This document shows, piece after piece, positions 33,821 to 34,801 of a stretch of DNA of 34,995 nt (within the stretch, counting starts at the first letter, position 1; each line of letters starts with the position of its first letter). Under the pieces are notes generated by a model that saw nothing but the letters and a program-made list of their open reading frames with translations, made no database searches and was not told the origin of the DNA. The position numbers and the translations under genes were made by a program. Source of the DNA: Rhodobiaceae bacterium (lineage in GTDB: Bacteria > Pseudomonadota > Alphaproteobacteria > Puniceispirillales > Puniceispirillaceae); the NCBI GenBank assembly GCA_018624035.1, contig JAAZUU010000011.1:1-34995 (forward strand), written 5' to 3'.

Positions 33821-34114
33821 ATGAGCAAGACATTGACACGCGCCGACCTCGCCGAGGCGGTTTACAGAAATATCGGCTTATCGCGCAATGAGTCAGCTGA
33901 ACTTGTTGAGACATTTCTTGAAGAAATGTGTGTATGTCTCGAAAAAGGCGAGGAAGTTAAGCTTTCGTCTTTTGGTACATTTTCGGTGCAGTCGAAACGT
34001 GAGCGAATCGGTCGTAATCCAAAGACCGGTGTCGAGGCGACCATCACACCGCGGCGCGTTCTGTCCTTCCGTCCGTCGCACATATTGAAAGACCGGGTTG
34101 ACGGCGAATCATGA
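33821..34114 (+). CDS. ihfA: Integration host factor subunit alpha
   Basis: This 97-residue nucleoid protein pairs with IHF beta to bend DNA in replication, recombination and promoter control. It belongs to the HU/IHF family: [22 protein letters not shown], then [25 protein letters not shown], with the intercalating proline at Pro67 in RNPKTG (65-70), and [19 protein letters not shown]. No Shine-Dalgarno precedes the ATG, and the promoter geometry suggests a leaderless mRNA. The stop overlaps the merR gene by four bases (ATGA). Confidence 0.94.
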
Positions 34115-34473
34115 GCGAGAAAGCCTCCGACGCCTTTCGCACGATTTCAGAGGTTGCGGAGCATCTTGAAATACCACCGCATGTTCTGCGGTTCTGGGAA
34201 ACAAAATTCACCACTCTTCGTCCGCTGAAGCGCAGCGGCGGTCGCCGTTATTACCGGCCTGATGACGTGGCGCTTCTCGAGCGTATTCGTGACCTTCTCT
34301 ACAATGAAGGTTTCACCATCAAGGGTGCGCAGAAGCATATTGGCAGTCGCCAGGCTGGCGGTGTCGCCATGAGTGGCGGCAAGGGTGCCGGTGACGATCT
34401 TGCCGAGGCATTCACGACCTTGGGATCTGCGCGCGAGTCGCTGGCGCGACTGCGCAAGACTGTCGAAGGTTGA
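34111..34473 (+). CDS. MerR-family transcriptional regulator
   Basis: This 120-residue regulator has an N-terminal MerR helix-turn-helix: [25 protein letters not shown] (residues 9-33), followed by [34 protein letters not shown], the winged part. The C-terminal part is short, Gly-rich and then helical ([15 protein letters not shown]), with no recognisable effector domain or metal cysteines. A MerR-type gene directly after ihfA is a conserved alphaproteobacterial arrangement; its targets are not known to me. It overlaps ihfA by four bases. The 240 bases downstream hold the 13-bp repeat and the tRNA promoter. Confidence 0.9.
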
Positions 34474-34587
34474 TTCCCGGTTCCTTTGCGCCTTTCGGTC
34501 ATTCGCGCCTCTCGGGCTTGTTCATCAAGACAAATCCTCCCGTTGACCCGATCCGCCGGCCCGATTCGCTTGTCGGAGCCGCCGGCC

Positions 34588-34672
34588 GAATCCGCCGGCC
34601 GAATCCGCCGGCCGAATCCGCCGGCCGAATCCGCCGACCGAATCCGCCGGCCGAATCCACCGGCCGAATCCG
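34588..34672. repeat. 13-bp tandem repeat, six copies plus a partial seventh
   Basis: The unit GAATCCGCCGGCC is repeated without gaps from 34588 to 34665, six times, then GAATCCG at 34666-34672. Copy 4 has GCCGACC and copy 6 has CCACCGGCC; the others are identical. Degenerate copies extend left to about 34550. Each unit begins with GAATC (a GANTC methylation site) and contains GCCGGC and CGGCCG palindromes. Because 13 is not a multiple of three, the open frames across it encode artificial 13-residue repeats and are not genes. It ends one base before the tRNA-Pro -35 box. Confidence 0.95.
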
Positions 34673-34673
34673 T

Positions 34674-34702
34674 TTGCGAACGCGCCATCTCTCGTCTATA
34701 AC
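34674..34702 (+). promoter_or_regulatory. Promoter of tRNA-Pro
   Basis: TTGCGA (34674-34679) and TATAAC (34697-34702) are separated by 17 bases. Transcription should begin near 34709, five bases before the mature 5' end of the tRNA. The -10 matches at five of six positions. Confidence 0.65.
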
Positions 34703-34713
34703 GCCTGTCGTGT

Positions 34714-34790
34714 CGGAGCGTAGCGCAGCCTGGTAGCGCACCTGCTTCGGGAGCAGGGGGTCGGAGGTTCGAATCCTCTCGCTCCGACCA
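34714..34790 (+). tRNA. tRNA-Pro (anticodon CGG)
   Basis: This 77-base cloverleaf has acceptor strands CGGAGCG (34714-34720) and CGCTCCG (34780-34786), discriminator A and an encoded CCA (34788-34790). The anticodon stem is CCTGC/GCAGG with loop TTCGGGA, so the anticodon CGG at 34748-34750 reads proline CCG. The T arm is GGAGG TTCGAAT CCTCT with GTTCGAATCC. The D loop contains AGCCTGGTAGC. CCG is frequent in this G+C-rich genome. Confidence 0.97.
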
Positions 34791-34791
34791 T

Positions 34792-34801
34792 TTGAATTCA
34801 A
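34792..34801. other. 10-bp palindrome after tRNA-Pro
   Basis: TTGAATTCAA is a perfect palindrome one base after the tRNA CCA end. With the larger hairpin downstream it makes the tRNA trailer strongly structured. Function unknown. Confidence 0.4.

Follow-up and report, generated by a model that had tools for sequence, protein, structure and literature searches.

The array described here lies in a window of 34,995 nucleotides, by which is meant the whole stretch of DNA that was analysed. On the forward strand, ihfA, encoding integration host factor alpha (33821..34114; TIGR00987, E 7e-41, above cut-off), is followed by a gene for a MerR-family regulator (34111..34473; PF13411, E 8e-22), which is the upstream neighbour of the array, and on the far side by a gene for tRNA-Pro with anticodon CGG (34714-34790), identified by ARAGORN. 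A sigma-70-type promoter of the tRNA gene is predicted on the same strand at 34674..34702, composed of TTGCGA (34674-34679), a spacer of 17 nucleotides and TATAAC (34697-34702); it is conserved in congeners and was absent from the output of a stricter consensus promoter scan. In G037, a genome from another family of the same order, the tRNA-Pro is identical to that of the window over 81 bases and the upstream sequence is unrelated.

Upstream of this promoter, GAATC begins at positions 34588, 34601, 34614, 34627, 34640, 34653 and 34666, that is, in exact 13-bp steps. The sequence-only reading had reported these seven sites together with GATTC at 34563, and this is right base for base; its placement of the array end one base 5' of the tRNA -35 box also agrees with the promoter beginning at 34674. 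TRF called the repeat at 34579-34672 with a period of 13, 7.2 copies, 95% match and a score of 174, and the whole array extends over 34550-34672 once decayed copies at its 5' side are counted in. When the forward strand is decomposed into units from each GA, three parts can be observed. The region 34550..34587 holds three decayed copies, GATCCGCCGGCCC (34550), GATTCGCTTGTCG (34563) and GAGCCGCCGGCC (34576), with the 26- and 39-bp rows of TRF beginning at 34551. Six near-perfect 13-bp units, GAATCCGCCGGCC, occupy 34588..34665, as found by TRF, the site listing and the unit decomposition alike; the unit divides into the palindrome GCCGGC and the remainder CGAATCC. The terminal GAATCCG at 34666..34672, which comparison with congeners marks as common to the array and the ancestral promoter, passes directly into TTTGCG. 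The units at 34627 and 34653 carry one substitution each, both outside GAATC, and GAATC is unbroken in the last seven copies; since these copies contain only two substitutions in total, there is no power to call the intact GAATC conservation. The seven phased GANTC are tandem copies of one unit and not independent sites. The units are near identical and arranged head to tail beyond chance expectation (TRF; Markov control), with a unit length inside the range of about 10-60 bp typical of a minisatellite. A coding reading of the array was tried and rejected: two overlapping minus-strand ORFs, 34299-34688 and 34499-34801, span it, with no Pfam match. Repeats of 13 bp are able to remain open in several frames.

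The array is missing from the gap between merR and tRNA-Pro in all six congeners (G001, G002, G004, G007, G008 and G009), in which the gene order is conserved, and it therefore appears to be recent and confined to this lineage. Copy number accordingly differs between related genomes, with about 7-10 copies here and none in the six congeners. A 20-base query made from the unit matched this genome with at most one mismatch only within the array, all other places having three mismatches. When 136 genomes of the order were searched for arrays with four GANTC at 13-bp spacing, only two others, G018 and G007, had any, built from different units and placed at other loci. An exact 19-base stretch of the unit occurred at 66 loci of a species-representative collection, once at each, and at no locus does the unit form a tandem array. 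With the unit unique in its genome and none of these loci a tandem array of it, a dispersed repeat family was rejected. Viral origin was also rejected, as the 13-bp GANTC arrays in IMG/VR carry unrelated units.

Tandem arrays as such are abundant in this genome (G000). In a 686-kb sample, which covers roughly one quarter of the genome, TRF returned 64 arrays with a period of 9-30 and a score of at least 60, compared with 2 in a second-order Markov control. The intergenic 7% of the sampled sequence contains 26 of the 64, a share obtained with a crude ORF caller that was misled by overlying antisense ORFs into counting the array of the window as coding. If only arrays with three or more copies are considered, there are 40 in the 686 kb here and 6 in 400 kb from G001, which is 3.9 times the rate (p 3e-4). 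The units are mutually unrelated, mostly with a period of 11-19, and 4 of the 64 contain GANTC, as against about 2 expected from the GANTC density of the genome, P(>=4) = 0.16. Given so many unrelated arrays and this GANTC density, a few GANTC-bearing minisatellites are expected in such a genome. Further GAATC arrays are a 14-bp unit on contigs C56 and C179 and a 15-bp unit on C177. The 14-bp array (GAATCGGCCTGAGA) with which contig C56 opens recurs at G000:C179:12056-12130, possibly reflecting an assembly break or a duplication at the repeat. A GANTC-GGCC theme common to the arrays was considered and rejected; GGCC is present in 19 of the 64 units, yet most units are without GANTC. A search of the literature on tandem repeats in such marine alphaproteobacteria, or beside bacterial tRNA promoters, returned nothing on point. 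The description of the array as a slippage-prone locus holds in kind, this being a minisatellite in a genome full of them. The sequence-only reading had also been prepared to give way if the same unit were scattered as a general repeat without GANTC conservation; this applies in part, in that tandem arrays are general in the genome and show no GANTC conservation, and fails for the exact unit, which is present only here.

The scarcity of GANTC that the same reading had assumed is borne out. The window contains 88 sites against 171.8 +/- 10.3 in dinucleotide shuffles, and a 303-kb sample of the genome contains 698 against 1080 expected for independent bases. In that sample AGNCT is as rare as GANTC, while CTNAG and TANTA are rarer still. 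A genome-wide study reports that GANTC is under-represented in the Alphaproteobacteria and that CTNAG behaves similarly even without CcrM (PMC3973325). The cluster of seven GANTC within 100 bp is the densest in the first 303 kb sampled. The CcrM methyltransferase is encoded, with a RAMA domain and a match to NCBIfam NF050803 (E 4e-183, below the strict cut-off of that model) for the protein scanned as a trimmed form with its start set at MNRNMIIEG; GcrA is encoded as well (PF07750, E 1e-17), so that both partners of a CcrM/GcrA-controlled promoter are present. Because CcrM is encoded, the GANTC sites of the array are probably methylatable, and they are probably methylated by the resident enzyme like other GANTC sites.

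A GANTC close to the promoter is found in five of seven genomes, G000 included, and in four of the five it stands free of any array; G004 and G007 are without the site. Relative to the tRNA start it lies at -48 in G000, G001 and G009, at -49 in G008 and at -46 in G002, and its middle base is A in G000, G001 and G008, G in G009 and T in G002. These five genomes are related species and do not represent five independent events. In G001, G009 and G008 the block that runs from GANTC through the -35 box is largely kept and the sequence 5' of it has diverged. This comparison suggests that the GANTC next to the -35 box predates the array. Conservation in relatives beside a promoter is a property of the last site only and not of the array, and none of the other tRNAs sampled from G000, G001 and G002 has GANTC within 75 bp upstream. 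In Caulobacter, GcrA requires GANTC methylation for binding and at ctrA P1 occupies the region from -35 to -10 (PMC3667746), and for this reason the older site may be read by CcrM and GcrA. This single older site, and not the array, is the plausible candidate for a CcrM/GcrA element. The extended Caulobacter motif YGAKTCG (PMC7987155) is not matched, the site being CGAATCC / GGATTCG with a misfit at the first base.

The array is best regarded, with good though not complete confidence, as a lineage-specific neutral minisatellite in which GAATC has been carried along passively. In an ancestor, GAATCCG would already have adjoined the -35 box of the tRNA-Pro promoter, as the congeners support. Slipped-strand mispairing or unequal recombination would then have duplicated a 13-bp segment containing GAATCCG, the array growing in the upstream direction, perhaps aided by the GC-rich palindrome GCCGGC, through which neighbouring units could pair. 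The 5' copies would have decayed afterwards. The number of GANTC would rise simply since the site sits inside the unit, and the -35 and -10 boxes of the tRNA promoter stay equally far apart when copy number changes. Against the neutral reading it counts that the array halts exactly at the promoter, that GAATC is intact and that GANTC is otherwise depleted, with this cluster the densest found in the first 303 kb sampled. With bacterial intergenic minisatellites and VNTR loci the array shares head-to-tail 13-bp units, a near-identical centre, one decayed edge, a non-coding position and restriction to a lineage. Nothing essential differs; the unit here happens to hold a CcrM site, and the difference in copy number is one between congeners.

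The roles proposed from sequence, a methylation-dense landmark, a protein-binding array or a tuner of tRNA expression, found no support. Congeners with the same gene order are without the array, the units of other arrays are unrelated and mostly without GANTC, and 13 bp does not correspond to a helical period. A regulatory array, in which methylated GAATC would recruit GcrA with sigma-70 RNA polymerase to the promoter of tRNA-Pro, the strength or cell-cycle timing of this promoter varying with copy number, is unlikely. The two encoded proteins, the promoter-proximal GANTC retained with a varying N, its absence upstream of the other sampled tRNAs and the methylation-dependent binding of GcrA in Caulobacter are all in its favour, but congeners have a single site and no array, the first base of the extended motif does not fit, and the upstream copies lie far from the promoter, out to about 160 bp ahead of the tRNA, and do not share one helical face. 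The Caulobacter promoters ctrA P1 and mipZ likewise have GANTC beside the -35 of a sigma-70-type promoter, with CcrM and GcrA encoded; here, by comparison, the promoter is that of a tRNA, the sites are multiple and in tandem, and the extended GcrA motif is not matched. It is very improbable that a CcrM/GcrA site already present beside the tRNA promoter has been multiplied by slippage into a methylation-dense array, with the number of copies determining how tRNA-Pro(CGG) responds to the cell cycle.

An array bound by some other protein, or a contingency locus at which slippage tunes tRNA-Pro expression in the manner of pathogen promoter repeats, is quite unlikely. Tandem repeats in promoters can alter the number or spacing of binding sites, and the reviewed cases involve a change either in how many regulator sites there are or in how far apart the promoter elements lie (PMC3899988); the array, furthermore, occupies the place of an upstream promoter element. 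Unlike the reviewed cases, however, the -35/-10 spacing is unaffected here, there is no known binding protein, the array appears to be recent, and the genome has similar arrays at many scattered places. The phase-variable repeats of Neisseria nadA and Haemophilus hifAB also lie upstream of or within a promoter, whereas the present array is outside the -35/-10 spacer and missing in relatives. A transcribed structure, in which adjacent units form GCCGGC-loop-GCCGGC hairpins that end or stabilise the ihfA-merR transcript, is hardly credible. The unit does consist of a palindrome plus a 7-nt loop, and the RNA fold of the gap reaches -88.6 kcal/mol, but across the gap the RNA z is -1.45, with 16 of 200 shuffles as good, and as DNA the array strand is no more stably folded than its shuffles (z -0.5). 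RNA folding and the terminator scan gave no stable GC hairpin with a T-run that could serve as an intrinsic terminator, and the array is missing in congeners.

The array is of little importance in itself, being one among the many minisatellites of this genome, and it carries the warning that conservation should not be read from motif density inside a tandem repeat. If methylation tied the tRNA promoter to the cell cycle, the older GANTC next to the -35 box of tRNA-Pro(CGG) would be of modest importance.
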